Part shown: positions 6,115 to 58,392 of the stretch, in pieces
Numbering within the stretch: the first letter of the stretch is position 1
Layout of the letters: each line of letters begins with the position of its first letter
Origin: Clostridia bacterium
Lineage (GTDB): Bacteria; Bacillota; Clostridia; Peptostreptococcales; Acidaminobacteraceae
Assembly: GCA_016937975.1 (NCBI GenBank)
Contig: JAFGVN010000002.1
Location: forward strand, 1-64,000
Length of the DNA stretch: 64,000 bases
Direction: 5' to 3'
Program-made: the position numbers and the translations under genes
The notes under the pieces: generated by a model
The model's input: the letters and a program-made list of their open reading frames with translations, nothing else
Told to the model about the DNA's origin: nothing
Databases searched by the model: none

Positions 6115-6244
6115 ACTTACCTTCTTTCAACTCTTGTTACTATGATTGTATACTAATATTGTAAACATATCAATCGAATTGAGAACTGTTTTCAAGTAGA
6201 GTGACACATCCAATTAACCAGCAAAGAATTTTTTTATCTATTTT

Positions 6245-16152: not shown

Positions 16153-16194
16153 GCCACTTTCAGTGCATTTAGAAAAAGTGGCTTAAGCCACTTT
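16141..16194. repeat. Tandem pair of near-identical palindromes between convergent genes
   Basis: AAAGTGGCCTAAGCCACTTT (16141-16160) and AAAGTGGCTTAAGCCACTTT (16175-16194) differ by one base and lie 34 bp apart within a duplicated unit that includes the following CAxTGCATT. The first hairpin contains the stop codon of the DUF4386 gene and the second touches the stop of the Crp/Fnr gene. They probably act as transcription terminators for the two convergent genes. Confidence 0.75.
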
Positions 16195-16763
16195 CATTGC
16201 ATTCTTTTTTTGATTCGACTAAAAGATTCTGGTGTCATCCCTAAATAGCTTGCTAGCATTCTTTGGGGAACACGATTGACTAAATCTCTCTTATCTTCTA
16301 AGAGCATACGCAACCGTTCTTCAGGGGATGCTTTTTTAAACAACGTAAAATCTCTGTGGATTTGATTCAACTGTTCAGCCATTATAGCCATATTGGCTGA
16401 CTGTACCTGACTAAAGGCTTTATACATCCTTTCCTCAGAGGCTTTATCACCAACCACCACAACTGTATCTTCTAAAGTCTCCAATTGATTAAAGGCTTCT
16501 TCCTTTATATCGTGTAAGGCAGACATGCCCTGTGTATAAAATTGAGCTGTCACTTCATTACCATCTTCATCAACATGATACTGTCTTAATAGTCCCTGTA
16601 AAACAAAATAACAGCGATCTGTATATGCTCCTTGTGCAACGAGAATTTTATGCTTTTCATAAGTCCTAAAATCCAGTAGCTTAATAATTTCTTCTAAAGT
16701 GTTTTCATCACAACTCAGGAAATTTCTTAAGAACTTCTTCAATTCATCTTTCATTTTTCTCAT
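16194..16763 (-). CDS. Crp/Fnr-family transcriptional regulator
   Basis: A 189-residue regulator with an N-terminal cyclic-nucleotide-binding-like beta roll (YFVLQGLLRQYHVDEDGNEV) and a C-terminal winged helix. The recognition-helix region is RVPQRMLASYLGMTPESFSRIKK. It lacks the cysteine set of Fnr, so an iron-sulfur oxygen sensor is unlikely. The effector is unknown. It starts one base after the downstream boundary of the next minus-strand gene (16765), so it may be the last gene of that operon, and it converges on the DUF4386 gene. Confidence 0.82.
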   Translation of the reverse strand: MRKMKDELKKFLRNFLSCDENTLEEIIKLLDFRTYEKHKILVAQGAYTDRCYFVLQGLLRQYHVDEDGNEVTAQFYTQGMSALHDIKEEAFNQLETLEDTVVVVGDKASEERMYKAFSQVQSANMAIMAEQLNQIHRDFTLFKKASPEERLRMLLEDKRDLVNRVPQRMLASYLGMTPESFSRIKKRMQ

Positions 16764-42839: not shown

Positions 42840-43168
42840 TATTTACCTCCGATTTCATTAATATCGTAAGTGCCATATTGCTCATGTATTTTTCTAGCTA
42901 CCATTAAGGCAACTGCAGTAATACCAAAACCGATTACAATTGCAGTCAAAACAATAGCTTGAGGCAATGGATCAACAAAATCCTTGATGCTGTTACTACC
43001 TGTCAAAATCGGTGCAATACCATCCTTGTTAAATCCAATTGTAATTACGAATAAATTTAAACCAACTTCAAAAACATTCAAACCAACAACCATCTTAATG
43101 ATATGTTTAGTTGTCAATAATGCATAGAGTCCAAGGAGCATCAAAACAATTGCAGCAAGATTTATCAT
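42839..43168 (-). CDS. mrpC: MrpC / NuoK-like subunit
   Basis: 109 residues, three helices, of the MnhC/MrpC (NuoK-related) family. The signature DPLPQAIVLTAIVIGFGITAVAL near residue 70 is diagnostic. Buried acidic residues in helix 2 (NVFEVGLNLF) match the family. It overlaps the MrpB-type fusion gene by 4 bases. Confidence 0.9.
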   Translation of the reverse strand: MINLAAIVLMLLGLYALLTTKHIIKMVVGLNVFEVGLNLFVITIGFNKDGIAPILTGSNSIKDFVDPLPQAIVLTAIVIGFGITAVALMVARKIHEQYGTYDINEIGGK

Positions 43169-43908
43169 ATGTTTGCCTCCTTTTTCATAAAATCTGAGAT
43201 TATACCTGTCAATTCAGAACCTACCTTTAAACCAATGAACAAGTATACTACAGGAATTAAACCTGCACTAAACAATTCACCAATGGTTCCTGTTTGATCA
43301 ATATTTTGTAAAAAATGACCCATAAGAATCATGCCAACCAAGCCAATTAGAATATAAATGGTTCCTGATAAGCCTTCTAGCATTTTAAAAGCTTTGATTT
43401 TTGGCATAAACTCATGATCTGAAAGTGACAAGAGAAGCATAGCCGAAGCAATCATTGCCCCACCTTGAAAACCACCACCAGGGCTTAAGTGTCCATGGGT
43501 GATAATATAAACACCTACAATCATTAGAATGGGTAAAATCGCTTTTGAGCCCACTCTTAAGATGAAACCACTTTGAGAACGCTTCATCCATGAATCCGTT
43601 GTGCCGATCATCAAAGAAACGCCTAAAGCTGAAATAAACAATACTGTGACTTCACCCAAAGTATCAAAAGAACGATAGCCAGCAACAATGCCTGTTATAG
43701 CATTCGCTGAACCAATTTCAAGATTCTTGGTCTCGCCAAATTTGATATCTTGATTTTCACCCATAGCATTTTGCTTTATGTATGTATCTGAAACACTATT
43801 TTCTACTTTTGTTTCACCAAAATCAGGTAATAAATTGTTATCAACCACCAAAGTTATGGTCATAAATGCCAACGTTGCCAACAATAATAACGCTAAAACT
43901 TTCTTCAT
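43165..43908 (-). CDS. Fusion of MbhE-like (MrpA C-terminal) and MrpB domains
   Basis: 247 residues. The N-terminal half, after a signal-like helix and a polar loop, contains TGIVAGYRSFDTLGEVTVLFISALGV, the MbhE/MrpA C-terminal domain. The second half contains THGHLSPGGGFQGGAMIASA, the MrpB/MbhF signature. These are separate genes in Mbh and fused or rearranged in Mbx-type operons. The gene therefore supplies two antiporter-module subunits as one chain. It overlaps both neighbours by 4 bases. Confidence 0.85.
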   Translation of the reverse strand: MKKVLALLLLATLAFMTITLVVDNNLLPDFGETKVENSVSDTYIKQNAMGENQDIKFGETKNLEIGSANAITGIVAGYRSFDTLGEVTVLFISALGVSLMIGTTDSWMKRSQSGFILRVGSKAILPILMIVGVYIITHGHLSPGGGFQGGAMIASAMLLLSLSDHEFMPKIKAFKMLEGLSGTIYILIGLVGMILMGHFLQNIDQTGTIGELFSAGLIPVVYLFIGLKVGSELTGIISDFMKKEANI

Positions 43909-44159
43909 TTATGATCACCTACCTTATTCACTTGTTTAACGGTTACTAAGAACAAGAATGTAATCAAACCTGATCCAATAACAACCTCAGTCATAGCAAC
44001 ATCAGGTGCTTTCAATAAAACAAAAGCAACCGCTGATAACATACTTAAAATGGAAAGATATATGATGGTTTTAATGATATCTTTAGAAAAGACGATTAGT
44101 ATGCCGCTGATAACAAGTAATAAACTAACAATGATTTCAATAATATTTATTGCATCCAT
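43905..44159 (-). CDS. MbhD-like subunit (DUF4040, MrpA C-terminal segment)
   Basis: 84 residues, three helices, with SMLSAVAFVLLKAPDVAMTEVVIGSGL, the conserved segment of the MrpA/MbhD DUF4040 domain. It corresponds to part of the C-terminal region of MrpA. The large NuoL-like N-terminal part of MrpA is not encoded with it, as in Mbh and Mbx gene clusters. Overlaps the next gene by four bases. Confidence 0.85.
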   Translation of the reverse strand: MDAINIIEIIVSLLLVISGILIVFSKDIIKTIIYLSILSMLSAVAFVLLKAPDVAMTEVVIGSGLITFLFLVTVKQVNKVGDHK

Positions 44160-44160
44160 A

Positions 44161-44484
44161 CTATACCTCCTTTTCGTAAAATTCTTTTAAGGCATCCACT
44201 GTAGCCTTTTCAGGTTTAACACCATTTCTATATGCTGATCTTAAAAGCGTTGATGAACCTACAGGATTTGTAATCGCTACAAAAACAAGGATCAACAATA
44301 ATTTTGGTGTCCATGCAGGAAAAAAGAAACATGCACCAACTAATGCAGAAAAAGTGCCTAAAGTTGTTGCTTTAGTACCCGCTTGTGCTCTATTATATAC
44401 GTCAGGCATTCTCAATAAACCAAGGCCACCTAGTGCGTAGAATAATCCACTGATTACCAATAATATTTTACCAATAATAATCAT
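44161..44484 (-). CDS. mrpG: MrpG-like subunit
   Basis: 107 residues with three helices and the MnhG/MrpG motif GGLGLLRMPDVYNRAQAGTKA followed by TNPVGSSTLLRSAY. Small structural subunit of the antiporter module. One base separates it from the MbhD-like gene and it overlaps mrpF by 4 bases. Confidence 0.9.
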   Translation of the reverse strand: MIIIGKILLVISGLFYALGGLGLLRMPDVYNRAQAGTKATTLGTFSALVGACFFFPAWTPKLLLILVFVAITNPVGSSTLLRSAYRNGVKPEKATVDALKEFYEKEV

Positions 44485-44732
44485 GAACGCACCTCCAAGA
44501 ACTTAGCAAATACTATGGTTTCCAAGAAACCTAAAATACCATAAGCTATAGCAACATCAATCAGCATTTCATTTTTAGCAATAATTGCAATCACAACTAA
44601 AACACCAATAATCATAACATTGATGACATCTAGACTTACTACGCGATCAAAATGATTAGGACCTTTTATCAATCTATAGCCCGAGAATAATATCCCTATA
44701 CTTACAAGAATGAAATAAATTATATTAATCAT
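44481..44732 (-). CDS. mrpF: MrpF-like subunit
   Basis: 83 residues, three helices, with the MrpF pattern GPNHFDRVVSLDVINVMIIG and the ending ILGFLETIVFAKFLE. The aspartate in FDRVV/LDVI is conserved in the family and important for antiport. Overlaps mrpE by 8 bases. Confidence 0.9.
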   Translation of the reverse strand: MINIIYFILVSIGILFSGYRLIKGPNHFDRVVSLDVINVMIIGVLVVIAIIAKNEMLIDVAIAYGILGFLETIVFAKFLEVRS

Positions 44733-45213
44733 TGAAAATCCTCCCTAGAACACCTTCAAAACTTGAGGAAATATGTTTTTGATGTTCTTCTGCCGTTTCA
44801 CCTTTTACATCAATCCAATGAATGTAAACGTTTTCCACGTCTGCATCAATGGAAATCGTTCCTGGTGTTAAGGTAATTGAATTTGCCAATGTCAATTTAC
44901 CAAGATCGCTTTTTACCTTTGTTGGTACTTTAACGATACCTGGATTAATTGGTAAATTAGGATTCAAGACGCGCTTAGCAACATCTAGATTTGCTTTTAT
45001 CAATTCTATGATCAATATTGGAATATACATCAAGATAAACATCAGTAATTTAATAATGATGTTCCACTTAAATGACATTTGAACATAGTTTGATAAGATC
45101 ACACTAAGGATAATTGAAACAGCTGCCCCAACAATCACTTCTTGTACATTGAAACCTGCCATTAAAACCCAAATGATGAACATCACTAGACTTAATGAAA
45201 TGATCTTTTTCAA
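44725..45213 (-). CDS. mrpE: MrpE-like subunit
   Basis: 162 residues: two N-terminal helices, a third near residues 60-80, and a soluble C-terminal part. Family features include KVKSDLGKLTLANSITLTPGTISID and the ending IHWIDVKGE. Second gene of the operon, 14 bases after the ArsR regulator. Confidence 0.88.
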   Translation of the reverse strand: MKKIISLSLVMFIIWVLMAGFNVQEVIVGAAVSIILSVILSNYVQMSFKWNIIIKLLMFILMYIPILIIELIKANLDVAKRVLNPNLPINPGIVKVPTKVKSDLGKLTLANSITLTPGTISIDADVENVYIHWIDVKGETAEEHQKHISSSFEGVLGRIFND

Positions 45214-45227
45214 ATGAACCTCCTTTT

Positions 45228-45551
45228 CTAACAGTTAATGATTTCTTCCTTTGCTTCCTCATACAGTCCATCTAAGAGCAAACGAATCAGCTTAATAACT
45301 TCCTCATTTACAATATGATACTGTATTTCAACACCATGTCTTTCTCCTTCAATCACTCCCGATGAACGAAGTTTAGACAAATGTTGAGAAATTGTCGATT
45401 GAGGTGTTTCCATCTTTTGTACAAGTGTTTTTACATTGCACTCTTCGGCCCCCATGAGACAACTTAAGATGCATAATCGCATCGGATGAGCAATTGTTTT
45501 TAAAAGCTCAGCTTTTCTTTTCAGAATTCTAATCTTTGCTTGATCAGGCAT
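45228..45551 (-). CDS. ArsR-family regulator at the head of the Mbx-type operon
   Basis: 107 residues with a winged helix: IAHPMRLCILSCL, recognition helix PQSTISQHLSKLRSSGVIEGERHGVEIQYHI (wing included). Cysteines lie in LCILSC, EEC and at the very C-terminus (IINC). A cysteine near the helix-2 region paired with a C-terminal one recalls BigR/YgaV-type persulfide-sensing ArsR proteins, though this is inference. The start at 45551 follows GGAGGTG. A perfect palindrome lies 21 bases upstream, so autoregulation of the whole operon is likely. Confidence 0.88.
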   Translation of the reverse strand: MPDQAKIRILKRKAELLKTIAHPMRLCILSCLMGAEECNVKTLVQKMETPQSTISQHLSKLRSSGVIEGERHGVEIQYHIVNEEVIKLIRLLLDGLYEEAKEEIINC

Positions 45552-45571
45552 CTTCACCTCCCTATTATCTA

Positions 45572-45593
45572 TATATTCAAATATTTGAATATA
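45572..45593. promoter_or_regulatory. Perfect 22-bp palindrome, candidate ArsR operator
   Basis: Two 11-bp arms, TATATTCAAAT and ATTTGAATATA. ATTC...GAAT half-sites of this kind are typical for ArsR-family repressors. It lies between the predicted transcription start (near 45603) and the start codon, so a bound repressor would block the operon. Confidence 0.75.
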
Positions 45594-45609
45594 CCGATAT
45601 ATAAATAGT

Positions 45610-45637
45610 ATCATATAATTTATTCTCGCAAACACAA
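45610..45637 (-). promoter_or_regulatory. Promoter of the ArsR/Mbx-type operon
   Basis: On the minus strand TTGTGT (45632-45637) and TATGAT (45610-45615) are 16 bp apart, placing the start of transcription just ahead of the 22-bp palindrome. Confidence 0.6.
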
Positions 45638-45753
45638 TTTACTGAACATTCAGAACTTTGCGTCTAATTAAGAATGATTCTCTTTTTAATTCTTTGCAAT
45701 CTCATCCCAGTAAACAAAAACTGCTTATAAATCAATGACAATAGGCAAAAAAA

Positions 45754-45772
45754 ATAAGCGTATTACGCTTAT
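45754..45772 (-). terminator. Intrinsic terminator of the HutD/ArsR operon
   Basis: ATAAGCGTA (45754-45762) pairs with TACGCTTAT (45764-45772), followed by eight T residues on the minus strand. It overlaps the ArsR stop codon and separates this operon from the Mbx-type operon. Confidence 0.8.
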
Positions 45773-46083
45773 CCAACAGATTCACTAAAGACGCCCTGTT
45801 CACAATTGCTTATCAATAAATCAATGATAGCAACAACTTCGGAATCCTTTATATAATAATTCATCATAACGCCATCTCGCTCAAAATCAACAATATCCTT
45901 TAAGCGCATTTTAGATAAATGCTGGGAAACTGTAGATTGAGGCAATCCTAAATGTTCAGCCAACTCATTAACTTGATAAGGTTTAGATTTCAAGCAATTT
46001 AAAATACACAGTCTCATGGGATGTGCTATGATTTTCAACATTTCTGATTTTTTAATTAATATTTTTTGCTTTTCAAAATCCAT
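45769..46083 (-). CDS. Second ArsR-family regulator
   Basis: 104 residues, clearly paralogous to the ArsR gene 200 bases downstream: IIAHPMRLCILNCL, LPQSTVSQHLSKMRLKDIVDFERDG. It also has the LCILxC cysteine pair and a near-C-terminal cysteine (ISNCEQ). It starts one base after the HutD-like stop and is cotranscribed with it. It could control its own operon, the Mbx-type operon, or both. Confidence 0.85.
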   Translation of the reverse strand: MDFEKQKILIKKSEMLKIIAHPMRLCILNCLKSKPYQVNELAEHLGLPQSTVSQHLSKMRLKDIVDFERDGVMMNYYIKDSEVVAIIDLLISNCEQGVFSESVG

Positions 46084-46084
46084 C

Positions 46085-46624
46085 TTAAATTTCCTCTATA
46101 CTTATGAATACACCAACAAAATTCTTACTGATCCTAAGTTCCTTCAGCTGATCCATCTCAAAAATAAAATCTTTTTCAGTGAAAACCCTTGAATCAACCT
46201 TTAAGCTTCCCTTTAAAATATAAAGTCCTTGATGTTTCTTCAATGAAATATGGTCTTGAACCTGTCCTGATATGATGTTTATATTGCCTTTATATTGCTG
46301 CGATGTCATTACATTAAAATCAACAACTTCATTAAAGCTTTCTGTCCTTAAGCCACCATCAAAGGAAAAACTTTCACATGGTTCCAAATCAATTTTTTCG
46401 CCTTTATGCAATAGAGTTAAAGGTCCATTAAGGCTCATAATCACTCTATTAATATTCGGTAATTCAGTAAAAACAGAATGCTTTACTTCAACTGTTGCAG
46501 TTGAAATTCGCCAGTCAAAGTCTAGAGTCTTATACTCTGAATGTTCTGGCCATATCATCAGCTGAGTAGTTGTACCACCTGACCAATTACTTGTTGTTTG
46601 ATTTTCTTTTTTTAAGATATACAT
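46085..46624 (-). CDS. HutD-family cupin-like protein
   Basis: 179 residues of the HutD/Ves family (bicupin fold): opening YILKKENQTTSNWSGGTTTQLMIWPEHSEY, RISTATVEVKHSVFTELPNINR and FEPCESFSFDGG-type motifs. HutD is linked to histidine utilisation control in some bacteria, but no hut genes are nearby. The start at 46624 follows TGGAGGT. Paired with an ArsR regulator. Confidence 0.82.
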   Translation of the reverse strand: MYILKKENQTTSNWSGGTTTQLMIWPEHSEYKTLDFDWRISTATVEVKHSVFTELPNINRVIMSLNGPLTLLHKGEKIDLEPCESFSFDGGLRTESFNEVVDFNVMTSQQYKGNINIISGQVQDHISLKKHQGLYILKGSLKVDSRVFTEKDFIFEMDQLKELRISKNFVGVFISIEEI

Positions 46625-46717
46625 TGAAACCTCCAAAGCAATTTTATTTTAACACATTGAAATAGGTTACACCAACTTTTTATTAAATATTTCACAAGTT
46701 CTATTTCAGACGTTTAA

Positions 46718-46741
46718 AAGCCGGCACTTTCGTACCGGCTT
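46718..46741 (-). terminator. Intrinsic terminator of the chemoreceptor gene
   Basis: AAGCCGG (46718-46724) and CCGGCTT (46735-46741) form a GC-rich stem with an A/T-rich flank, just after the chemoreceptor stop. Confidence 0.8.
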
Positions 46742-46744
46742 CTT

Positions 46745-48433
46745 TTAATACTTGTCAAACTCATCATCACTTAAGGCAATTCTTTTTCGATCAATTTGCT
46801 TATTCTTTAATGTGGGTTTGACAGGTTCATCATAATGATGTGGTTCACGATTTACTTTTTCTTTATAATCAAATTTATTGGTATCTCTTTTTAACTTAAA
46901 AGTAGCCACTTGTGATTTTAACATGTTCGATTGTCCTGAAAGTTCTTCACTAGCAGCAGCTGTTTCTTCAGCAGTAGCACTAGTCGTTTGAACTACATCT
47001 GAAATTTGATTAAGTCCTTGATTAATTTGATCCACACCTTGAGATTGCTCATTTGAAGCAGCTGAGATATCTCCCACCAAATCAGTTACCTCAGATACAC
47101 CTTCAACAATCTTTGACAAAGCTTCTGCAGTACGCTTTGCTATAGTTGTACCATCATTAACTTTCTTCATTGAACCTTCTATCATGGCAGTTGTTTCTTT
47201 TGCTGCATTTGCAGATCTTGCAGCTAGATTTCTTACTTCCTCAGCAACAACGGCAAAGCCTTTACCATGTTGTCCAGCTCTTGCAGCTTCAACAGCAGCG
47301 TTTAGTGCTAAAATATTAGTTTGGAATGCAATATCATCAATCACTTTAATGATTTTTGAAATATTGTTAGAAGATTCATTGATATCCTCCATGGCAGCAA
47401 GCATTTCAGTCATTTGAGTATTACCTTCTTCTGCATTGCTATAAGCTGTTTCAGCCAACTGTTTAGCTTTAATGGCACCTTCTGCATTAATTTTAATCTG
47501 AGAGGCTATTTCCTCAATGGAAGCGCTTAATTCTTCGATAGAACTTGCTTGCTCTGTCGCACCTTGTGATAAAGACATGCTAGAATCAGATAGTTGGCTT
47601 GAACCTGCAGCTACTTGTTCTGATGCACTACTGATTCTTGATATGACATCATTCATATTCTCAGACATTTTTTTAAACGCTTCTGCAAGCTGACCCACTT
47701 CATCTTTCGACACATAAGTCACTTTAATATTCAAATCGCCATCTGCTATTTTTTCTGCTGCACCAACCATTTCATTCAATGGCTTGCTTATAATTCTTGA
47801 GATGTAGTATCCCAAACCAATGGCAGCAATCACTGCAAAACTAATCACAATAATCATGGTTGTATTTGCTTGTGTAGCCATATGGTTGTTATCTTCTGCT
47901 TTTAATTCCGCATCAGTTACCTTCATGGATACCAACTGATCAATGGCATCTTTTTCTGCATCCGCTGCAATACGCATTTCACCTTTAATCATGGTGTAAG
48001 CTGCATCATCATCATTTACAATACATAAATCATAAAAGCTAGGAAGCATCGCTCCAAAAGTTTTTCTTGTATCCATAAAATCTGAAAAAGCATCCTTCAT
48101 TTCCTGAGATATGGCTTTTTCTTCAAAAGATTCAGATAGAACATTTAACTCTTCAATAATTTCTGAAATGTTATTGTACATTGCATTAATATTGTCCTTG
48201 TCATCTTCCAAGATCATATCGCGAGTATTCACACGGACACGCTGAAATAATTTGGCCATTTCAGCTGCCTCTGCAATAGGTACTGTCATATTTTGATAAA
48301 GTATATCCCCATTTTCGTTGATATTTCCTATGTTTGTGATGCCAATTACACCTACTACGCCCGATAATAAAGCGACAATAATAAAACCGGTTATTAATTT
48401 TGTAGTAATTTTCATATTAAGTAAAAATTTCAT
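46745..48433 (-). CDS. Methyl-accepting chemotaxis protein
   Basis: 562 residues: membrane helix 10-32, a four-helix-bundle sensor (4HB_MCP type, residues 35-185), second helix near 192-212, HAMP and a long signalling coiled coil. The hairpin tip is [23 protein letters not shown]...[16 protein letters not shown]. The start at 48433 is chosen because GGGGAG precedes it; an upstream frame to 48508 lacks a site. No chemotaxis genes adjoin it, so it signals to a che system elsewhere. The ligand is unknown. Confidence 0.92.
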
Positions 48434-48654
48434 ACTGGCTATCTCCCCTTTGTTCATATAAATTAGTTTCATGTAAATCTTTAATCTATCTACCCCTACT
48501 TTACCCATATAAACAATTCGACAAAAAAATCATACAAATAAGCGCTTTTGTTATTATTACACTTTCTTATTGAATATAATTTTGAATTAAATCGGTAACA
48601 TCTGAAATTACATTTTCTCATAATGTGAATTTACAGCTTTAAAATCAAAAAAAA

Positions 48655-48679
48655 AAGACATAAGCGTTGCATATATCTT
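48655..48679 (-). terminator. Intrinsic terminator of the MATE gene
   Basis: AAGACATAAGC and GCATATATCTT form an imperfect stem followed on the minus strand by a run of T residues, overlapping the MATE stop codon. Confidence 0.6.
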
Positions 48680-50048
48680 AAGCTGCTAATTTTCTTTTTT
48701 TCTTGATCACGGGTTGTTTCCATCTTCCTGTTAAATACAATCCAAGACCAACAAAAACAATAATTATATTTGATAAGATCATTGCATACCAAATGTACTT
48801 TGAATTATGCATATTGAAGTAATCCAAAAGTAAAATCATTGGAATTCTCAATAACCATAATCGCCCCATATTAATAAACATCGCTGAAATTGTATGACCA
48901 GAGCCTTGGAACAAACCATTAATACAGTTGAAGAACCCAAACAACGGTATGGTAATTAAAATCATTTTCAAATAGTAACTACCTTCAGAGATAATATATG
49001 CATCATCCGTAAATAAACCAACAAGCTGATCTGTAAAGAAATACATCACAATAGCACCAATACTCATAATAATAGACGCCAGGCCTACACTTGTTAAGAA
49101 AGCCTTATTGGCTCTTTTTATATTCCCTGCACCAATATTTTGCCCGATGATTGTTGAAAGTGCACCGGCTATACCCATTGCTGGCATGAAAATCAGTGAA
49201 CTAATCCTATTGCCGATTGCAAATGCAGCTACAATGGATTGCCCATAACTAATGATGAAACTATTCATCACGGCAAAACCCATAGCTGTGGTCGCCTGGC
49301 CAAAAGCTGCAGGCATCCCAACGGATATAATTTGCTCCAAATAGTGTTTATTGATTTTCAAATCTTTAAATTGTAACTTCAAAGTATTGTGTTTTTTTGA
49401 GAAAAGCAAATATAAAGCTACAATGTTAAAAACACCTCTCGATAAAACAGTAGCAATTGCAGCACCAGCAATACCCATATCAAATACAAAGATAAACAAA
49501 GGGTCCAGTGCAATGTTTAAAAAAACAGAAAGAGAACTGATGACCATTGGTAAAAAAGTATTCCCTTCACCTTGCTTAATACCATTAAAGGCAAATGTAA
49601 TAAACATGGTCGGAGTACCTAAAAACATGATTCTTAGAAAGGATGTTGCATATTTCAACAAATCTCCTTCTGCATTCATGAGTTTCAAAACAGATTCTGC
49701 AGAAAAATACCCTACAATGGCGACGGCAACAGATGCAATCATCGATGCCGTGAGTAATTGTCCTGCTATCTTTCTGGCATCTCTTCGATCATTTGCTCCA
49801 ATGTATTGAGAAATGAGAGCAATACCTCCAATTGATAATCCTGCACCTAAACTTATTAGAAGAAAGATTAAAGGAAAAGTAATTTGCATAGCTGCCATTT
49901 GTGCTGTACCAAGTTTTGAAACAAAAAAAGTATCTGTTAAATTATAAAATGTCTGAATTAAGTTACTGGCCATAATTGGTAATGCTAAAGTAAGGATAGC
50001 TTTTGCAATATTGCCTCTTAAAATCATTTCTGAACGATCTTTACTCAT
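48678..50048 (-). CDS. MATE-family multidrug efflux transporter
   Basis: 456 residues, twelve membrane helices in two homologous MatE halves. It opens MILRGNIAKAILTLALPIMASNLIQTFYNLTDTFFVSKLG, a signature of the DinF/NorM-like cluster. It exports cationic drugs or metabolites using Na+ or H+. The start at 50048 follows GAGGT. Alone in its unit, with a terminator after it. Confidence 0.92.
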   Translation of the reverse strand: MSKDRSEMILRGNIAKAILTLALPIMASNLIQTFYNLTDTFFVSKLGTAQMAAMQITFPLIFLLISLGAGLSIGGIALISQYIGANDRRDARKIAGQLLTASMIASVAVAIVGYFSAESVLKLMNAEGDLLKYATSFLRIMFLGTPTMFITFAFNGIKQGEGNTFLPMVISSLSVFLNIALDPLFIFVFDMGIAGAAIATVLSRGVFNIVALYLLFSKKHNTLKLQFKDLKINKHYLEQIISVGMPAAFGQATTAMGFAVMNSFIISYGQSIVAAFAIGNRISSLIFMPAMGIAGALSTIIGQNIGAGNIKRANKAFLTSVGLASIIMSIGAIVMYFFTDQLVGLFTDDAYIISEGSYYLKMILITIPLFGFFNCINGLFQGSGHTISAMFINMGRLWLLRIPMILLLDYFNMHNSKYIWYAMILSNIIIVFVGLGLYLTGRWKQPVIKKKRKLAA

Positions 50049-50470
50049 AATTACCTCACAATTCATTCGCATATCGAAACATATTTATCATACCATTTTT
50101 ATGGATTTCTGTCTAATTTACAATTTGTTATTATTTTCTTTTGCATAGGTACCAATAGATAGTCTCTCATTAATCTTTTGAGTAACTACTTTCAGATTTT
50201 CTAGATTTCTTTTTTTTACATAACAAAAGGTTATCTTAAATGAAATAAAAAAATAATTGTCCTTCTAACACGCACACTGTTGTGTATTTGACAGACAAAC
50301 AAACCTGAGATTTCAAAAAAAAATCCACAAAGAACCTTGTATTTTTCTGATTTTTTTTCTCCAACCTTTGTGAGTACTTTATAAATTTATCAAATATTCA
50401 AAATATGAATTCCCTTCTGATGAAAATGTGTATATAATTCTACTCAAATCAAAATTTCAGGAGGTTTCAC
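50049..50470. other. 420-bp intergenic region between divergent transporters
   Basis: AT-rich region holding the promoters of the MATE gene (minus) and symporter gene (plus). A TATAAT near 50434 is a candidate -10 for the symporter. No reading frame, repeat or RNA structure stands out. Confidence 0.4.
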
Positions 50471-51661
50471 ATGGAAAAGAAATTAAATTTACTCCCAAAA
50501 CTGATCTTGGGAATTATTCTAGGTATTGCTGTTGGATTGTTATCCAAATCACTCAACTTTAATATACTCGTTCGATTAATGAGTACCTTCAGTGGGATCT
50601 TCGGGAGTTTTTTAAAATTTGTTATCCCTTTGATTATTATTGCATTTGTTGCACCCGGTATTGCTGATCTAGGTAAGAATGCAGGTAAAATGCTTGGATT
50701 AACAACCATCTTAGCATATACTTCTGCAGTGATTGCAGGTTTTGCTGCTTTCTTCTTCGGTCAAATGATTTTACCAAGTATTATTCAAGCAGGTACTCTT
50801 GGTGAAACCAGTAACTTTGATGTTTCACCTTATTTTTCAATTGATATGGGCGCAGTCATGGGCGTAATGACTGCTTTAGTCCTTGCCTTCTTATTAGGTA
50901 TAGGTTCTGCTTCCATTAAAAGTAGAAATTTGATACAAGTGATTCATGACTTCAAATCCATTATGGTCCTTACTGTACAGAAAGTTTTAATACCGCTTTT
51001 ACCGATTCACATCGCAGGGATCTTTGCAAAAATATCTGCAACAGGTGAAATATTTAAAACCATGAAAGCTTTCTCATCAGTCTTTATCATGATTCTAGTC
51101 ATACAGGCATCATATATTATTTGCCAGTATCTTGTGGCATGGCTCGTAAGTGGTAAGAATCCAGTTAAAGCAATAAAAAACATGTTGCCAGCATATTTTA
51201 CAGCTTTGGGCACACAGTCTAGTGCTGCAACCATTGCAGTTACATTATCTTCAGCAAGAAAAAATGATATTGAAGATGATGTTGTAGACCTGGTCATTCC
51301 CCTAGGAGCAACGATTCATTTGGCTGGTGATACTATTACTTTAGTACTTGCAGCAATGGGTGTCATGCTTTTAAATGGTAGTACACCTACTCTTGCTTTA
51401 ATGGCACCATATATCTTTATGTTAGGCATCACGATGGTTGCTGCTCCTGGTATTCCAGGTGGTGGTGTAATGGCAGCCCTCGGTTTATTGGAGACGATGT
51501 TGGGATTTGGTGTTTCTCAACAATCATTGATGATTGCCCTTCACTTTGCTCAAGACAGTTTTGGTACTGCCACTAACGTTACAGGTGATGGTGCTATTGC
51601 TATCATTATTGATTCCATTTATAAAAAAATCAACCCTTCTAAACAAGAAAAGCTAGATTAA
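50471..51661 (+). CDS. Dicarboxylate/amino acid:cation symporter (DAACS family)
   Basis: 396 residues with eight helices and two re-entrant loops. The diagnostic segments are the serine-rich hairpin loop (ALGTQSSAATIAVTLSSA), the helix-7 motif replaced by IPLGATIHLAGDTITL, and the C-terminal loop with PGIPGGGVMAALG and DSFGTATNVTGDGAIA. It imports glutamate, aspartate, C4-dicarboxylates or neutral amino acids such as serine with Na+ or H+. AGGAGG lies 6-7 bases before the ATG. Confidence 0.9.
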   Translation: MEKKLNLLPKLILGIILGIAVGLLSKSLNFNILVRLMSTFSGIFGSFLKFVIPLIIIAFVAPGIADLGKNAGKMLGLTTILAYTSAVIAGFAAFFFGQMILPSIIQAGTLGETSNFDVSPYFSIDMGAVMGVMTALVLAFLLGIGSASIKSRNLIQVIHDFKSIMVLTVQKVLIPLLPIHIAGIFAKISATGEIFKTMKAFSSVFIMILVIQASYIICQYLVAWLVSGKNPVKAIKNMLPAYFTALGTQSSAATIAVTLSSARKNDIEDDVVDLVIPLGATIHLAGDTITLVLAAMGVMLLNGSTPTLALMAPYIFMLGITMVAAPGIPGGGVMAALGLLETMLGFGVSQQSLMIALHFAQDSFGTATNVTGDGAIAIIIDSIYKKINPSKQEKLD

Positions 51662-51684
51662 GTCAGTTGACTTTTCTAGCTTTT
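51647..51684 (+). terminator. Intrinsic terminator of the symporter gene
   Basis: AAAAGCTAGA (51647-51656) pairs with TCTAGCTTTT (51675-51684), overlapping the symporter stop codon. Confidence 0.75.
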
Positions 51685-51763
51685 GTAATATTTTCATCTT
51701 CATTTTCATAATCAATATAGGAAACCAGTGGTAATATCTTCATGTTTATATTCATAACCGAAG

Positions 51764-51925
51764 ATGCATTTTACTCATGAAAAACATAAAGCCAAAATAC
51801 CAGAAGAGCTTTCAAATATGAGTAACTCAAATATTTTAGTCGAGATACTTAATAATTATATTCACCAATTTGATACAATTATAAAGGCAACTGAAACTAC
51901 CTTCATTACCCATGACGCTGCCTAA
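51764..51925 (+). pseudogene. Possible gene fragment
   Basis: A 53-codon frame opening MHFTHEKHKAKIPEEL and ending in TAA. The composition is protein-like but there is no Shine-Dalgarno and I do not recognise it. It may be a remnant of a larger gene or chance. Confidence 0.25.
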
Positions 51926-52139
51926 ATGATATATTGAAGAAATGTTTTATTGCAATAAGTTTACTCCATATTGAAAGACTTTTAGAAATAGAAGCATCAT
52001 CCAACCTTTAGCTCTCATACCTCTTTGTCACCACATAAAAGTGCTGTCAAAACCTTTTTCATTTACGCAAACTGAATAAAATTGGCTGTCACTTGTCTCA
52101 ATAAGCGCTCAAAATCAATTATAACACTGATTAAAAAAG

Positions 52140-52168
52140 GACCAGGAGATCCATGTAAAATCCTGGTC
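52140..52168 (-). terminator. Orphan intrinsic terminator
   Basis: GACCAGGA (52140-52147) pairs with TCCTGGTC (52161-52168), followed on the minus strand by CTTTTTT. No minus-strand gene precedes it, which suggests a lost gene or an unrecognised RNA between 52170 and 52470. Confidence 0.6.
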
Positions 52169-52473
52169 TTGTGTTTATTTTAAATTATATGCATCAGAAA
52201 GCCCTGACACTTTATTGAGTTCCATAAATTTAAATGTAAATACTGCTTAGATTTGAAACTAGATTTCCTCAATACAAAATACTTTTTAAACTAAACAAAC
52301 AGGCTTTAATACAAAATACAAGATAAGCATGAGATTCCAGTATCTATCTTAATATAAATGGATATAAAGCGCAATTGAATATTCCGGGACATTTTGAACC
52401 TCTGTTCCGATATACGACCCCATGTGAATGAAAGTTGTCTGGCAAAGTAGTTATTCCGACTATAAATAATAAA

Positions 52474-52510
52474 ATAAGCCCTTCCTATATGATGTTATGG
52501 AAGGGCTTAT
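52474..52510. terminator. Perfect 12-bp hairpin
   Basis: ATAAGCCCTTCC (52474-52485) and GGAAGGGCTTAT (52499-52510) form a strong stem with A/T tracts on both sides. It is terminator-like in either direction, although no gene adjoins it. Confidence 0.6.
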
Positions 52511-52580
52511 CTTTTGTTACAGATCATATCTTATTCGTAATATTTATCAATATAATTGTTTTCGATTGTGTAACAACCTC

Positions 52581-52660
52581 AAAGGTATCTTGTCTTTTCC
52601 TAAAACAACTTGTTTTTTCCCAAGGCTAATTGTATAATCCCAAAGTTATCTTTGTAGAAC
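52581..52660. repeat. Four tandem 20-bp degenerate repeats abutting the Tn7-like element
   Basis: The four units start at 52581, 52601, 52621 and 52641, exactly 20 bp apart. They share AA at positions 2-3, TNT at 11-13, T at 15 and C at 20, and the first three also share TGT and a final TCC. They run up to the base before the Tn7-like left terminus. Closely packed phased sites are what TnsB-type transposases bind at right ends, so this may be the right end of an older element. Confidence 0.5.
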
Positions 52661-52678
52661 TGTAAAAAAGTCTAAAAC
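52661..52678 (+). repeat. Transposase-site-like repeat L1 (putative left terminus)
   Basis: TGTAAAAAAGTCTAAAAC. Outermost of three direct copies at the distal end. It begins with TGT, as Tn7-like termini do. Confidence 0.65.
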
Positions 52679-52728
52679 AAATAGACCCTTCAAATCCGCA
52701 TAAGTTAGTTTAATAGAATAATCATTTC

Positions 52729-52746
52729 TGTAAAAAAGTCTGAAAC
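52729..52746 (+). repeat. Transposase-site-like repeat L2
   Basis: TGTAAAAAAGTCTGAAAC, 68 bp inside L1 and one base different from it. Confidence 0.65.
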
Positions 52747-52781
52747 TTTCTACTGATTTTATCTTCTGATTTCGGGGTGTC

Positions 52782-52799
52782 GGTAAAAAAGTCCGAAAC
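52782..52799 (+). repeat. Transposase-site-like repeat L3
   Basis: GGTAAAAAAGTCCGAAAC, 53 bp inside L2, ending 11 bases from the stop codon of the first cargo gene. Confidence 0.6.
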
Positions 52800-52810
52800 T
52801 TTTTATCCTA

Positions 52811-53164
52811 CTACTTTTTAATCAATAATATGACAATAATCAACAGTAGCAACACTACAACTGAAAAAAACATTATTTGAAGCATGAAAGCATTGTTCAA
52901 AACAACATCCTTCTCACTTTCTTCATCTTTAAACTTTTCTTCAAGTTCATCTAATTTAGCATCTCTTTTATTTTTAAAATCTTCAAACGGAATACCTTCT
53001 ACAACACCACCATCAATTATATCATCAATGTTGTTTTCTTTATAAAAGATATCATCATTGTTGGTTGTATCAGTAGTTGTGTCAGTAGTGTCTGTTGCAA
53101 ATACAGTTATGCTAAAAGACATCATCAAAATAAGTATCATAATAATAGATAGTATTTTTTTCAT
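52811..53164 (-). CDS. Small membrane-anchored protein in the Tn7-like element
   Basis: 117 residues: an N-terminal signal-like helix ending VFATD, a threonine/aspartate repeat (TDTTDTTTDTT), an acidic coiled-coil stretch (FKNKRDAKLDELEEKFKDEESEK) and a C-terminal membrane helix (residues 93-114). The extracellular part would sit between two membrane ends or be released by signal peptidase. The start at 53164 follows GGGAGGT. Unknown function. It is the gene nearest the distal end of the element. Confidence 0.7.
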   Translation of the reverse strand: MKKILSIIMILILMMSFSITVFATDTTDTTTDTTNNDDIFYKENNIDDIIDGGVVEGIPFEDFKNKRDAKLDELEEKFKDEESEKDVVLNNAFMLQIMFFSVVVLLLLIIVILLIKK

Positions 53165-53437
53165 TTTTTCCACCTCCCTCTAATCACAGTATGCACGATG
53201 TAGGCCAATGATATAAGCTTGTTGTAGATACTGGCAAACTCATTCTAATGTATTTTAGATATGAAGATAGCGGAGGAATGAAATTCGATAGTAAAAGCGA
53301 AAACCAGAGAGCATGAAATTTAAAATAGTAGCTGTGACTAAAATTTACACAGTATAAATCCAAAGAAACCACAAGAATGTCTTGCGGTTTCTATAATTAA
53401 ATACATATTATTATTTCAGGTTAATCCATAGAAACGA
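53165..53437. other. Intergenic segment with gene fragment
   Basis: The plus strand has a 22-codon frame (MYFRYEDSGGMKFDSKSENQ..) that is open for about a dozen codons further upstream, without a ribosome site, ending near 53316. It looks like the tail of a lost gene. The rest is non-coding and ends with the terminator at 53364-53392. Confidence 0.3.
53364..53392 (-). terminator. Intrinsic terminator of the PIN-domain gene
   Basis: AGAAACCACAAGA and TCTTGCGGTTTCT-type arms form a stem with one mismatch and a 3-base loop, about 45 bases after the PIN-domain gene stop. Confidence 0.65.
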
Positions 53438-55456
53438 TTAATTTGCTTTCCTTATGTTTTCTATCTCTTTTGGAGTAATTTCCATTAATAACATTTCTTG
53501 CCTTAATGACTTCTTTGAGATTGAATTAACAACTTTTTTTATCGAAAGAATGAATATCGGAAAAACAATCAACGAAATAATATCATCTAATATAGTTCCT
53601 TTTGCAGTGAAGGTTATGCTTTTATTTCCTGTATCATTTGTTACAAAACTCATCACGCTTAAAATGTACTTAATATCAATAAATCCTGTTAATAGCATTA
53701 ATGAACCCCAAATTAAAAAGTCAGTCTTCCGTTTTGATTTTAAAGAATCATATTTCGCTTTAATGACTTCAATTCTTTTTAACTCATCACGTAATTTCAA
53801 TTTGTCAATTTCTTTGCTATGCTCATCTTTAGTTTTACTAAGCTCGTCTTTTGTCTTGCTTAACTCACCTTCAATTAGTTCAATTTTAACATTCTGTTTT
53901 TCAAGTAGTTGCTCAATATATATTGGAACTTGATTTTCAACATATTCCTTTTTATCGTCTATTGACTCAAGCTTATTAATATTTTCATATTCACTTTCAA
54001 TAATAATATTAAATAAGTCCTCTTCCTTCTCAACAGTTTCAGCATATGAAGATATAACACTTAAAGTTGCCATAACTGAATCAAAATCTCTTTTTTCTTC
54101 AATATATACATTACGTATAAAACTCACAAATGATTTGTAATCGTCACTTGTTCTGGTTCCAAACTTAAGTATAATGCTTAACCAATTACTTGGATACATA
54201 GCTACTGGGTACTCGTCAAGAGTAACAACTTCCCAATTAATTAATTGCTTATCGGAGGTCAAAAAAAACTCTTTTAAAGACCTGAAGTTATTACCTTGAC
54301 CTTCACGTAACTTATGTATATAAGCAATATTTATTGCATCGGGGCGTATTTCAATTTCTCGTTGTCTTTTATAACCCGCTAAAGACTTTGAAAAACGGTC
54401 AATTGTTGTACGTTGTCCATCTTTAGCCAAAGTATCAAAATCTACTTCATCAACTTCAATTTTATATTCTCTTATCAGTGATTCATATTTTGCCTTTATT
54501 CTTGCTTCATATACTTTAATATTTCCACCATTAGAATCATAAAAATTTTTTACGATTGCGTCACTTATTGGTTTTGTATATTTAATTTTTTTACTAATTC
54601 CACTAACCTTGTGTAAATGTCTATTTATTGATTCGAAAAATTCCTTTTGACTTGCATATGATATTTTTAATTTTTGCCCTGTTTCATTACAACGTCTTAA
54701 TAAATTCTCAACTTTTCGTTGCCTGTCTAATCCGTTAATACCAAGTAATCGATATATGATATTTGTATCAAGATACAATGTTTTCTTTAAAATGTTTGGT
54801 TCTTGATTTTTCAAATCAATATGACCGTTTAAAATAACAAACTCTAATGCAAGACTACCTATATCAAATATAGCTTTATTCTTATTGTCATCATCATAAT
54901 CAAGAAAATCATTAATAATTTTTCTCTTATTGTTGTCTATATCTAAGTCTTCTAAAACTTCTTCTCGCTCCATTTTTAAGTCGAACATTGCAGAACTTTT
55001 TTCCATATTTTGCACATATATTGAATAAAGAAAATTTTCTATAAGAATGACAAACTCTTCTTCTGTCATTTCTGATTGTAGTTTTTCATTACCAAAATAA
55101 TACTCATTTATAAACTTGTATATAGAGCCATTTTGTTCTCTATCAACAATTAACTGATATCTAACATCTCTTAGTTTTACCATTGCATTACATGATTCAG
55201 GATGGCTAAAATTGCAACTACCTTTTGTAAATTCAAAGTATTTGTCTTGGCGTACAACAGACCTTACTTCATCAATATGTATTCCAATGTCGAACATGTC
55301 ATTGATTAATGTAGGCAACATAGAACATTTTTCTGATTTATTATCAGTTAAAGCAAAATATGATTCAACAATTTTTCTTATCGTAGTTTCTCTCTTAAAA
55401 GCAGGATTATCATTATCATATAATAAAGCACCAAGTCTAAATTGATTTTTGTTCAT
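53438..55456 (-). CDS. Large PIN-domain, coiled-coil, membrane-anchored protein (putative defence cargo)
   Basis: 672 residues. Residues 1-225 are an unrecognised helical domain. A PIN-like nuclease domain follows, with acidic residues in TLYLDTNIIYRLLG (about 232), EFFES, RPDAINIAYIHKLR (about 375) and FLTSDKQLINW (about 400). Residues about 515-570 are coiled coil (EGELSKTKDELSKTKDEHSK). Two membrane helices (585-605 and 630-650) anchor the C-terminus. A strong GAGGGGG precedes the start. This resembles membrane-linked PIN effectors, but I know no named system with this exact layout. Its position inside a Tn7-like element suggests phage or plasmid defence, which is inference. Confidence 0.65.
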   Translation of the reverse strand: MNKNQFRLGALLYDNDNPAFKRETTIRKIVESYFALTDNKSEKCSMLPTLINDMFDIGIHIDEVRSVVRQDKYFEFTKGSCNFSHPESCNAMVKLRDVRYQLIVDREQNGSIYKFINEYYFGNEKLQSEMTEEEFVILIENFLYSIYVQNMEKSSAMFDLKMEREEVLEDLDIDNNKRKIINDFLDYDDDNKNKAIFDIGSLALEFVILNGHIDLKNQEPNILKKTLYLDTNIIYRLLGINGLDRQRKVENLLRRCNETGQKLKISYASQKEFFESINRHLHKVSGISKKIKYTKPISDAIVKNFYDSNGGNIKVYEARIKAKYESLIREYKIEVDEVDFDTLAKDGQRTTIDRFSKSLAGYKRQREIEIRPDAINIAYIHKLREGQGNNFRSLKEFFLTSDKQLINWEVVTLDEYPVAMYPSNWLSIILKFGTRTSDDYKSFVSFIRNVYIEEKRDFDSVMATLSVISSYAETVEKEEDLFNIIIESEYENINKLESIDDKKEYVENQVPIYIEQLLEKQNVKIELIEGELSKTKDELSKTKDEHSKEIDKLKLRDELKRIEVIKAKYDSLKSKRKTDFLIWGSLMLLTGFIDIKYILSVMSFVTNDTGNKSITFTAKGTILDDIISLIVFPIFILSIKKVVNSISKKSLRQEMLLMEITPKEIENIRKAN

Positions 55457-55641
55457 TGTTTCCCCCTCAAATATTTTAAATTTTATTTCTTTATTATTAA
55501 TTTAACATAAAAACATATCCAACAACAATCAATTGGCAAATATAAAAAGATATTGGTAAAAAAGGTCGCAATATCACCTCAATGATATATTCGGCCTATT
55601 AGCAACTTTGATATATGCAAAGAAGTTGATTTTATAACAAA

Positions 55642-56343
55642 TCATATATACTTTTTTATTGTTCCAGGGTCACATCCCATGTGTCTCGCTTTAGCTCTAA
55701 GACTTAAAGTATCATCACCTATTATCTTTTCTAACTCTCTATGCCAAAGAACCCCAAAGTCCTTAACTCTGCCAACCTTATTGCGGTCAGCATCCATTTT
55801 CCTTGAGTAGGTATATCCACACTCAGAACACTTGAAGGTTCCTACGGCAACTACAGTATCTAAATAACATCCATGTTTGTAGCAGGTTCTGACACCAATA
55901 ACATTATGTGGTCTATGTAAATAAGGCTCACCAACAGCTTTGATATCTTCTTCATAACAGATTGGACATATTTTAATTGTATTTTTATCATTTAAAAATA
56001 AATTATTCATATGAAATCCATGATTTCTTAACACACCTCTATCAGATTCTAACAACCCGTATTTAGCATTTTCGTATCGTTCCTTTGTATAAAACGGCTT
56101 TGTTATGTTGATATATGTATAATTCATTAATATCTCTTCTACTGAAAAATTTTCAAGTGCTTGAAGATTAGATGATAATATATTTATACGAGAAGGATAA
56201 TGAAGTTTAAAATCAAAGTAACCATTCTCGAATAAATCCTTCTTTGTTTGACTTTCCAAATCATTCATACTATAAAAATGATATCTGACAACCCAACTAT
56301 ATAAATCCTCATTCTCATAAGGGTAAAATGCAAATGCAACCAT
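55642..56343 (-). CDS. TniQ/TnsD-like target-selection protein (short form)
   Basis: 233 residues. It opens FYPYENEDLYSWVVRYHFYS, the TniQ N-terminal signature. It then has the zinc-binding CPICYEEDIKAVGEPYLHR with TCYKHGCYL, a second CSECGYTYSRK, and a C-terminal helix-turn-helix SLRAKARHMGCDPGTIKKYI. Full TnsD is about 500 residues, so this is either a compact TniQ or a truncated TnsD. The DNA beyond its stop is open in another frame for about 20 codons. TnsD binds the glmS 3' end to direct Tn7 insertion. Its gene is the first inside the glmS-proximal end, 220 bases from glmS. Confidence 0.85.
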   Translation of the reverse strand: MVAFAFYPYENEDLYSWVVRYHFYSMNDLESQTKKDLFENGYFDFKLHYPSRINILSSNLQALENFSVEEILMNYTYINITKPFYTKERYENAKYGLLESDRGVLRNHGFHMNNLFLNDKNTIKICPICYEEDIKAVGEPYLHRPHNVIGVRTCYKHGCYLDTVVAVGTFKCSECGYTYSRKMDADRNKVGRVKDFGVLWHRELEKIIGDDTLSLRAKARHMGCDPGTIKKYI

Positions 56344-56422
56344 AAATATCCTTTCATAAAACAATATTGCCTATAGTCAATATTATATCATGTATGACTT
56401 AGAGAAAAATCTAAATACTTAA

Positions 56423-56457
56423 AAAGACAACTTACCTCAAATGGATAAGTTGTCTTT
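56423..56457. terminator. Bidirectional terminator inside the right end of the Tn7-like element
   Basis: AAAGACAACTTA (56423-56434) pairs perfectly with TAAGTTGTCTTT (56446-56457), with T tracts on both strands. It would stop glmS transcription from entering the element, since no terminator lies between the glmS stop and the element. Confidence 0.75.
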
Positions 56458-56475
56458 AAATATATACTTATAAAA

Positions 56476-56537
56476 GTTTCAATCTTTTTTACAGATAGTT
56501 TCAATCTTTTTTACAGATTAACATCTTTTTTTATAAA
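56476..56537 (-). repeat. Packed transposase-site-like repeats, glmS-proximal end
   Basis: Two identical copies GTTTCAATCTTTTTTACA start at 56476 and 56498 (22-bp spacing). A weaker third copy (ATCTTTTTTTATAA core, near 56523-56536) lies toward glmS. They are inverted relative to the three copies at 52661-52799. Confidence 0.7.
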
Positions 56538-56562: not shown

Positions 56563-58392
56563 CTATTCTACAGTAACTGATTTTGCAAGGTTTCTTGGCT
56601 TATCTACATCATTACCTCTTGCAACAGATACATAATATGCAAACAACTGCATTGGAATAACACTTAATAATGGTGCTAATGCTTCTAAAGTCTTTGGAAT
56701 GAAAATCACTTCATCTGCAGTTTTTAAGATTTCATTGTCACCTTCCATAGCTACTGCAACTACATGTGCTCCTCTTGCTTTAACTTCAACGATGTTAGAT
56801 AACATTTTATCATATAAGTGTTGTTGTGTCGCAATGGCAATTACCAAAGTACCTTCTTCAATTAATGCAATAGTGCCATGTTTTAATTCTCCTGCTGCTA
56901 TGGCAAATGAATTAATATATGAAATCTCTTTAAACTTCAATGATGCTTCATAAGCACTGTATAAGTCTACACCTCTACCCATGAAGAAAACACTCTCATT
57001 GTTGAATTGTGAATCTGCAAATAATTGCACATCGTGACTTTTCTCTAAAATCTTTTCTATATGCTCTGGCATCTCATTTAAAGCTGAAATCATTGTCTTT
57101 ACTTCTTCTACTTCCATAGTTTTATGGACTAAAGCAAACTTTAAAGCCAACAAATAAAATACAAGAGCTTGAGATGTATAGGCTTTTGTAGAAGCTACAC
57201 CAATTTCTGGACCTGCCCAAGTGTAAAGTACACCATGTGAATCTCTAGCCACAGAAGAACCTACCACATTGACAATGGATAAAATGGTTGCACCTTTTCT
57301 TTTTGCTTCTCTTAGTGATTGTAAAGTATCCAGGGTTTCACCTGATTGTGATACAGCTATGAATAATGTCTTTTCATCCACAAAAGTTTGTCCATATCTA
57401 AATTCAGAAGCCACTTCTACAGATACAGGAATATTTGCAAATTTCTCAATTACATATTTACCAATCAAACCTGCATGATAAGCGGTACCACATGCTACAA
57501 TATAGATCTTGTCAAAGTTCTTGATCATTTCATCAGAGAAATCTACACCTTCCAAATTAATGATTTCATCTGAATTCAATCTTCTATGAAGTGTTTCTTT
57601 TACAGATTTAGGTTGCTCATGAATTTCTTTTAATGTGAAATGCTGGTAACCTTCTTTCTCAGCAGCTTCTGCATCCCAAGTTACTTCAAAAATTTCTCTT
57701 TCTACAGGTTGTAAGAAAGCATCAAAAATTTCAATTTTCTCCTTTGTTAACAAAACAAATTCATCATTTTCAATGAAATGTACTTTTCTAGTATATTTCA
57801 AAAGAGCAGGAATATCACTTGCCAAGTAGTTCTCATTTTCACCTAGACCAACAATTAAAGGACTGTCTTTTCTAACTGCAACAATTTTATCAGGTTCATC
57901 TTCACATATAACAGAAATTGCATATGCACCTTCCATTCTGTCTACTGCTTTATAAACAGCATCCATCAAATCCCCTTCATAGAAGTAGTTTACAAGATGA
58001 GCAATAACCTCTGTATCTGTTTCAGATTTATATTCAATTTGACCTACTTCTTTTAAAAACTCTTTAATTTTCAAATAGTTTTCAATGATACCATTGTGTA
58101 TAACTGCAATGGAATTCACTTGATTGGTATGGGGATGAGCATTGTTTTCCGTTGGTGCACCATGGGTTGCCCATCTTGTGTGTCCAATTCCAATAGAAGA
58201 TTGATAAGATTCTACGTCCATTGAATCTTCTAATACCTTTAATCTACCTTTTTTCTTGTTGACTACCAGCTTATTGTTTTCTAATAATGCAATACCTGCT
58301 GAGTCATAACCTCTATATTCTAATTTTGATAAACCATTTAATAATACAGGCAAGGCTTTATGCTCACCAATGTAACCTACAATTCCGCACAT
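56563..58392 (-). CDS. glmS: Glutamine-fructose-6-phosphate aminotransferase
   Basis: 609 residues. Class II glutamine amidotransferase domain starting at the catalytic cysteine (MCGIVGYIG) with the HTRWATHG motif, then two SIS sugar-isomerase domains (ACGTAYHAG, SQSGETLDT, STKAYTSQ) and the C-terminal KPRNLAKSVTVE. It makes glucosamine-6-phosphate from fructose-6-phosphate and glutamine, the first step to UDP-GlcNAc for cell wall. AAGGAG precedes the start. The leader contains a glmS ribozyme followed by a terminator-like hairpin. The 3' end is the attachment site used by Tn7-type elements, and such an element lies right after it. Confidence 0.96.
   Translation of the reverse strand: MCGIVGYIGEHKALPVLLNGLSKLEYRGYDSAGIALLENNKLVVNKKKGRLKVLEDSMDVESYQSSIGIGHTRWATHGAPTENNAHPHTNQVNSIAVIHNGIIENYLKIKEFLKEVGQIEYKSETDTEVIAHLVNYFYEGDLMDAVYKAVDRMEGAYAISVICEDEPDKIVAVRKDSPLIVGLGENENYLASDIPALLKYTRKVHFIENDEFVLLTKEKIEIFDAFLQPVEREIFEVTWDAEAAEKEGYQHFTLKEIHEQPKSVKETLHRRLNSDEIINLEGVDFSDEMIKNFDKIYIVACGTAYHAGLIGKYVIEKFANIPVSVEVASEFRYGQTFVDEKTLFIAVSQSGETLDTLQSLREAKRKGATILSIVNVVGSSVARDSHGVLYTWAGPEIGVASTKAYTSQALVFYLLALKFALVHKTMEVEEVKTMISALNEMPEHIEKILEKSHDVQLFADSQFNNESVFFMGRGVDLYSAYEASLKFKEISYINSFAIAAGELKHGTIALIEEGTLVIAIATQQHLYDKMLSNIVEVKARGAHVVAVAMEGDNEILKTADEVIFIPKTLEALAPLLSVIPMQLFAYYVSVARGNDVDKPRNLAKSVTVE

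Follow-up and report, generated by a model that had tools for sequence, protein, structure and literature searches.

In Tn7, the TnsB-binding sites are packed at the right end and spaced at the left end, as described in the available part of PMC11406308, and we infer from the same partial text that target immunity should spare an incoming element if its TnsB fails to bind the end already in place. Multiple ends are ascribed, in the part of PMC8649781 available, to elements that inserted into or beside one already present. The locus described here lies downstream of glmS in a 64,000-nucleotide stretch of a Clostridia bacterium genome (contig JAFGVN010000002.1, positions 1 to 64,000; 'the window' throughout), and appears to hold two Tn7-like insertion layers at one attachment site, in a genome without a detected TnsB-type gene. 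A 20-bp periodic array abutting a newer mini-element is, with a probability of roughly 0.8, the decayed right end left by an older Tn7-like element and split by the later insertion. Such layering is a fresh instance of an already known phenomenon, and the present locus is a good but ordinary example of it.

Compared with the Tn7 right end at attTn7, the array is alike in lying on the glmS side, in its packing, in its number of units and in the placing of its first core at +35 (numbers with a plus sign count from the glmS stop), a position also seen in five of ten right-end arrays of relatives. It is unlike the Tn7 end in its 20-bp step, which it shares with the relatives, as against the overlapping 22-bp sites of Tn7, as well as in its missing terminal TGT, its diverged site sequence and the absence of an AATAAAG core. 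Compared with nested or adjacent Tn7-like elements, as far as the available text of PMC8649781 describes them and as seen in the related genome G048, the newer left end likewise adjoins an older right-end array; the locus differs in that the insertion lies inside the outermost old site and in that the genome yielded no TnsB-type gene.

The newer mini-element downstream of glmS

The features of the newer element and its target are as follows.

56563-58392, minus strand: glmS, the 3' end of which is the attachment site
52653-56523, no strand assigned: the newer mini-element, Tn7-like, with TGT...ACA ends and a length of about 3.9 kb, its boundary ambiguous by one base
52648-52652 and 56523-56527: target-duplication copies, ATCTT
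52661-52799, plus strand: left-end TnsB-type sites of the newer element, three in number and spaced (starts 52661, 52729 and 52782)
56476-56515, minus strand: right-end TnsB-type sites of the newer element, two in number and packed (56476 and 56498), 22-bp step
55642-56364, minus strand: short TniQ/TnsD-like gene, 240 aa (PF15978, E 9.3e-14; PF06527, E 6.8e-11)
53438-55456, minus strand: cargo ORF, 672 aa, with one sub-threshold NCBIfam row

The segment 52653-56523 is a Tn7-like mini-element, apparently non-autonomous, which combines TGT...ACA ends and a 5-bp duplication with sites that are spaced on the left and packed on the right, and with a TniQ/TnsD gene. Its left end, from the terminus at 52653 inward, reads TGTAGAAC|TGTAAAAAAG, with the first TnsB-type site 8 bp inside, and its right end, on the minus strand from 56523, reads TGTTAATC|TGTAAAAAAG, with the TGT 8 bp outside the outermost site. 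All of its TnsB-type sites match TGTAAAAAAGTCTGAAAC with 0 to 2 mismatches. The step from TGT to the G of AAG is 17 nt at both ends, a value that was also read in the right ends of the relatives G109, G072, G194 and G116; if the TGT at +24 is taken as the terminus, the step in G048 and G040 is, in our reading, 19. The hexamer ATCTTT, present at 52648-52653 and at 56523-56528, holds the target duplication, which comprises five of these six bases with a one-base ambiguity. In the newer right end, a 22-bp site is duplicated exactly and in tandem (56475-56518), and its good right-end sites number two, as against three or four in most relatives.

This low number of good sites, together with a degenerate glmS-side site (TATAAAAAAAGATGTTAATC) lying outside both of them, could be taken to mean that the degenerate site belongs to the newer element, the true right terminus of which would then be at +26. 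Such an arrangement is extremely improbable. The TGT at 52653 and that at 56523 both stand at the 17-nt distance found in the four relatives named above, ATCTTT flanks exactly these two ends and nothing comparable fits +26, and a terminus at +26 leaves the units to the left of 52653 unexplained. The ends of the newer element are therefore placed at 52653 and 56523.

A search with PF09299 (Mu-transpos_C, TnsB-type) gave no match in the genome of the window, whereas the control genomes G048, G072, G109, G194 and G040 were all matched; over the whole search, matches were obtained in 8 of 15 genomes, among them the congeners G001 and G002 with one match each, on contigs other than those carrying their glmS. 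The PF08722 (TnsA) search returned 0 matches in the genome of the window and likewise 0 in the controls. A peptide-pattern search for related TniQ genes in the genome_contigs collection yielded 13 pattern matches and no relatives. The cargo ORF has zero Pfam or PADLOC rows at E 0.1 and contains LYLDTNIIYRLLG, which we take to resemble a PIN-type nuclease motif. A further ORF of 120 aa (52811-53173) has hydrophobic stretches at both ends and sub-threshold matches only.

A 20-bp array probably split by the newer element

To the left of 52653 lies the array, the parts of which are listed below as they would be assigned in an older right end.

52636-52652, minus strand: most of putative old unit 1 (outermost site), cut by the newer element, as read from the joined flanks
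56523-56530, minus strand: putative glmS-side rest of old unit 1
52576-52635, minus strand: putative old right-end units 2-4, in 20-bp phase, cores ACAATTAGCCTTGG, ACAAGTTGTTTTAG and ACAAGATACCTTTG
56535-56537, minus strand: expected place of the old terminal TGT (+26 to +28), which reads TTT
52471-52513, no strand assigned: inverted repeat beyond the array, 15-nt arms, 93% complementary, in a presumably terminator-like position

An earlier note on this DNA had described four exact 20-bp units at 52581-52660, unlike the sites of the newer element and ending at the base before its terminus. The exact spacing is confirmed for 52581-52640, and the units do differ in sequence from TGTAAAAAAGTCTGAAAC. 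Position 52661, which had been taken as the terminus, is the start of the first TnsB-type site, and the terminus lies 8 bp farther out at 52653, so that 52641-52660 consists of 12 bp of array followed by the outermost 8 bp of the newer element.

The best three units start at 52589 and have a mean pairwise identity of 0.683, the top value among 63,940 positions of the 64-kb window. The four-unit value of 52581-52660 is 0.542, which is reached at 8 of 63,920 window positions, seven of them offsets of the array itself and one at 34587. When periods of 15-29 bp (15 tested, four units) were compared, only 15 and 20 attained 0.542 anywhere, with period 15 doing so at 8 positions in the window (maximum 0.589). 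Dinucleotide shuffles, which were used for all reported shuffle tests except the left-end test (single-base), attained the three-unit value in 0 of 5000 cases when applied to the left flank alone, and the three-unit periodicity is thus independent of the joining of the flanks. Other tandem repeats found by the tandem repeat scan of the window are at 6240-6277 (20-bp unit, 1.9 copies) and 16137-16203 (34-bp unit, 2 copies). The inverted repeat at 52471-52513 is missing from the output of the terminator scan.

Register and site sequence

The pre-insertion sequence was reconstructed by removing the newer element and one copy of the duplication, and in this reading the minus-strand cores ACAATTAGCCTTGG, ACAAGTTGTTTTAG and ACAAGATACCTTTG are found at +55, +75 and +95. 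When the four reconstructed units are compared with the consensus ACAATAAAGTTTGA, the best register is at +35, with 32 of 56 matches. This number was reached by 4 of 5000 dinucleotide shuffles within registers +34 to +37 and, when all registers from +21 to +50 are allowed, by 23 of 5000, and a repeat of the test gave 3/3000 and 16/3000, respectively; over both strands of the window, 32 matches are reached at 3 of 127,840 positions. In a ranking of 113 regions by their score within +34 to +37, the site is tied ninth with G116 and G083. Among ten right-end arrays of relatives, the best first core is at +35 in G048, G109, G072, G194 and G040, at +36 or +37 in G116, G046 and G079, and elsewhere in G114 and G080.

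The terminal TGT is at +26 in G109, G072 and G194 and at +24 in G048 and G040. In the array it is absent, with TTT at +26 to +28 (56537-56535) and no TGT at +24 either, and for this reason the array is described as a decayed relic rather than as a working right end. A weight matrix built from 14 right ends, with three units each, gives the array -40.3 bits over four units, with the best placing again at +35, and -59.6 bits when reversed; the 14 training right ends score +30 to +52 over three units, an in-sample range. Six of the 96 other regions outscore the array by this matrix.

The array has the usual offset past glmS and at least three packed sites of about 20 bp in the same phase. As judged from sequence, it is in line with a right end in its position, its packing and its register, its units would once have been TnsB sites, and its site sequence appears either decayed or of another TnsB type. 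The missing TGT, the weak core motif and the negative matrix score are what might also be expected if the array were host intergenic DNA, such as a tandem duplication that has decayed or several regulator sites in a row, with a coincidental likeness to a right end. The searches and the survey described below bear on this explanation from both sides.

Searches for the rest of the older element

The earlier note had taken the 900 bp to the left of the array to fit a degraded older element, and had suggested a search for sites of this form at glmS in other genomes and for inverted partners farther to the left. The reading of the 900 bp as the body of the older element is unsupported. In 51662-52652 there are 21 fragments of 28 or more residues without a stop, and the 10 of these taken into the Pfam scan gave no gene remains and no match worth a name; two rows, one to a viral and one to an animal family, with E values of 0.11 and 0.21, were taken as chance. 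Nor was a second copy of 51662-52640 found in the genome, in which there are two matches of 43-44 nt only.

Other genomes gave a similar result. A BLAST search of 52541-52652 against 393 genomes, with two candidates scored in each, found the array in none of the other 392. Matches at E <= 0.1 were obtained in 124 genomes, the genome of the window included, the best non-self match being of 27 nt (E 1.7e-4). Nine of the matched places (L087-L095) were inspected: six are inside ORFs, two (L093 and L094) are between ORFs and one (L095) is at an ORF edge, their 20-bp scores are all <= 0.533, and no ORF printed there starts like glmS.

No inverted left end was found farther to the left. In 51662-52560 the best plus-strand pair of sites has p 0.16 (single-base shuffles). 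A pair with p 0.03, obtained in both 45000-52560 and 30000-52560, is inside the symporter gene at 50787 and was rejected, and the single occurrence of TTTAATGT, the duplication together with TGT, within 40001-52652 is at 46806, falls in a chemotaxis-type ORF (46745-48508) and was taken as chance. The lack of a left end and of a copy elsewhere in the 393-genome sample adds to what can be said for host DNA.

Survey of glmS-downstream regions

A glmS match was found in 336 of the 393 genomes of the order sample, of which the survey took a subset, namely the 113 genomes of the same order, besides that of the window, with retrieved loci or stretches; the sample is not random. G005 (contig ending 24 nt past the stop) had been left out beforehand, and G068 (N-masked) was dropped from the 113, which gives 112 usable regions, and a separate glmS scan of at least 80 loci, many of them in distant organisms, was excluded. 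The score was the three-unit 20-bp score within the first 160 nt past the glmS stop.

The regions divide with a gap, with scores of at least 0.733 in 15 of 112 (G048, G109, G079, G072, G114, G087, G066, G194, G115, G116, G101, G091, G080, G046 and G040) and of at most 0.55 in the remaining 97, and those above 0.73 resemble right ends. The array, at 0.683, lies in this gap, and its register of +35 is common to the right-end arrays of relatives and to a congener. Both observations argue against host DNA, which we regard as an unlikely source of the array in spite of the missing TGT and the absent left end.

The congener in question is the sister species G001 (L003), which has a weak array resembling a decayed right end. 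Like the array of the window, the stretch past its glmS has its best register at +35 (25 of 42 matches over three units; equalled by 0/3000 shuffles in register and 7/3000 in any) and ACAA-type units 20 bp apart, at +57 and +77 compared with +55, +75 and +95. It is unlike the array in having TGTACACT at +26, in its weaker periodicity (period score 0.50, reached by 7/1000) and in that no newer insertion is seen. TGTs that begin anywhere between +23 and +27 are frequent, being present in 33 of 114 regions, and the TGT of G001 is therefore weak evidence by itself. G002, of the same genus, gives no array signal past glmS.

A decayed right end need not be the remnant of a full island, and the array may, as a variant of the older right end, be a right end standing alone (solo) or have belonged to a mini-element with few genes. 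When TnsD matches were listed (E 1e-10, best five candidates per genome scored), 9 of the 13 TnsD-bearing genomes had a strong array (G065, G125, G136 and G200 did not), and six strong-array genomes, G046, G066, G087, G101, G115 and G091, were not among the listed matches. Mu-transpos_C is also unmatched in the first five of these, the arrays of which are possible solo right ends; the sixth, G091, speaks against such a generalisation with seven Mu-transpos_C matches. In G037 (L080), one right-type and two left-type sites are found within about 200 bp, about 25-200 nt past glmS; these look like a tiny gene-less Tn7-like element, in a genome with no Mu-transpos_C match, and are a further point in favor of the variant. 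We hold it to be a tentative option, less probable than an end left by a larger element.

Proposed order of insertion

The best-supported reading of the array, by virtue of its position past glmS, its 20-bp packing and its register, is the one that the earlier note had proposed, a right end that belonged to an older element of the Tn7 type, and the order that this reading predicts is seen in G048. In this one-contig genome (L068/L069), about 28.3-28.6 kb past glmS, a newer left end is followed by 11 bp and then by an older array, which is TGT-ended, in 20-bp phase and has a period score of 0.70, the boundaries being our own reading. The glmS-proximal element of G048 contains TnsB- and TnsD-type matches, and its presumed duplications differ (AAAAA on the right, AAATA on the left). 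In our reading, G048 is a positive control for the layering order, with the newer left end preceding the older array.

The earlier proposal had set the newer element beside the older one. The pairing of an older right end with a newer left end stands, with the amendment that the newer element appears to have inserted inside the outermost old site. In the sequence of events that we envisage, an older Tn7-like element would have taken the usual insertion point past glmS, and its right end would have lost the terminal TGT as its sites decayed. A newer mini-element with another TnsB-site sequence would then have inserted about 40 bp past the glmS stop, within the outermost old TnsB site, duplicating about 5 bp. 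The difference in site sequence may have let the newer element escape Tn7 target immunity.

The newer insertion is about 14-16 bp beyond the usual insertion point, which counts against this reading. If mini-elements with a short TniQ took as their target the end of a Tn7-like element already in place, namely its outermost TnsB site, rather than the point set by glmS, an insertion about 14-16 bp beyond the standard place would follow; we consider this very doubtful. The present locus suggests that decayed old right ends are recognisable by their 20-bp periodicity together with their register past glmS, which, if true, would provide a simple count of past attTn7 insertions and a probe of how newer elements evade target immunity.

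Second right ends were also read in two further relatives. In G080 a right-end TGT is at +25 and a second right end, in our reading inside the older one, is at +56. In G109 (L071) a second right end with four 20-bp sites is found about 5.28 kb past glmS, probably directly after an apparently broken tniQ.
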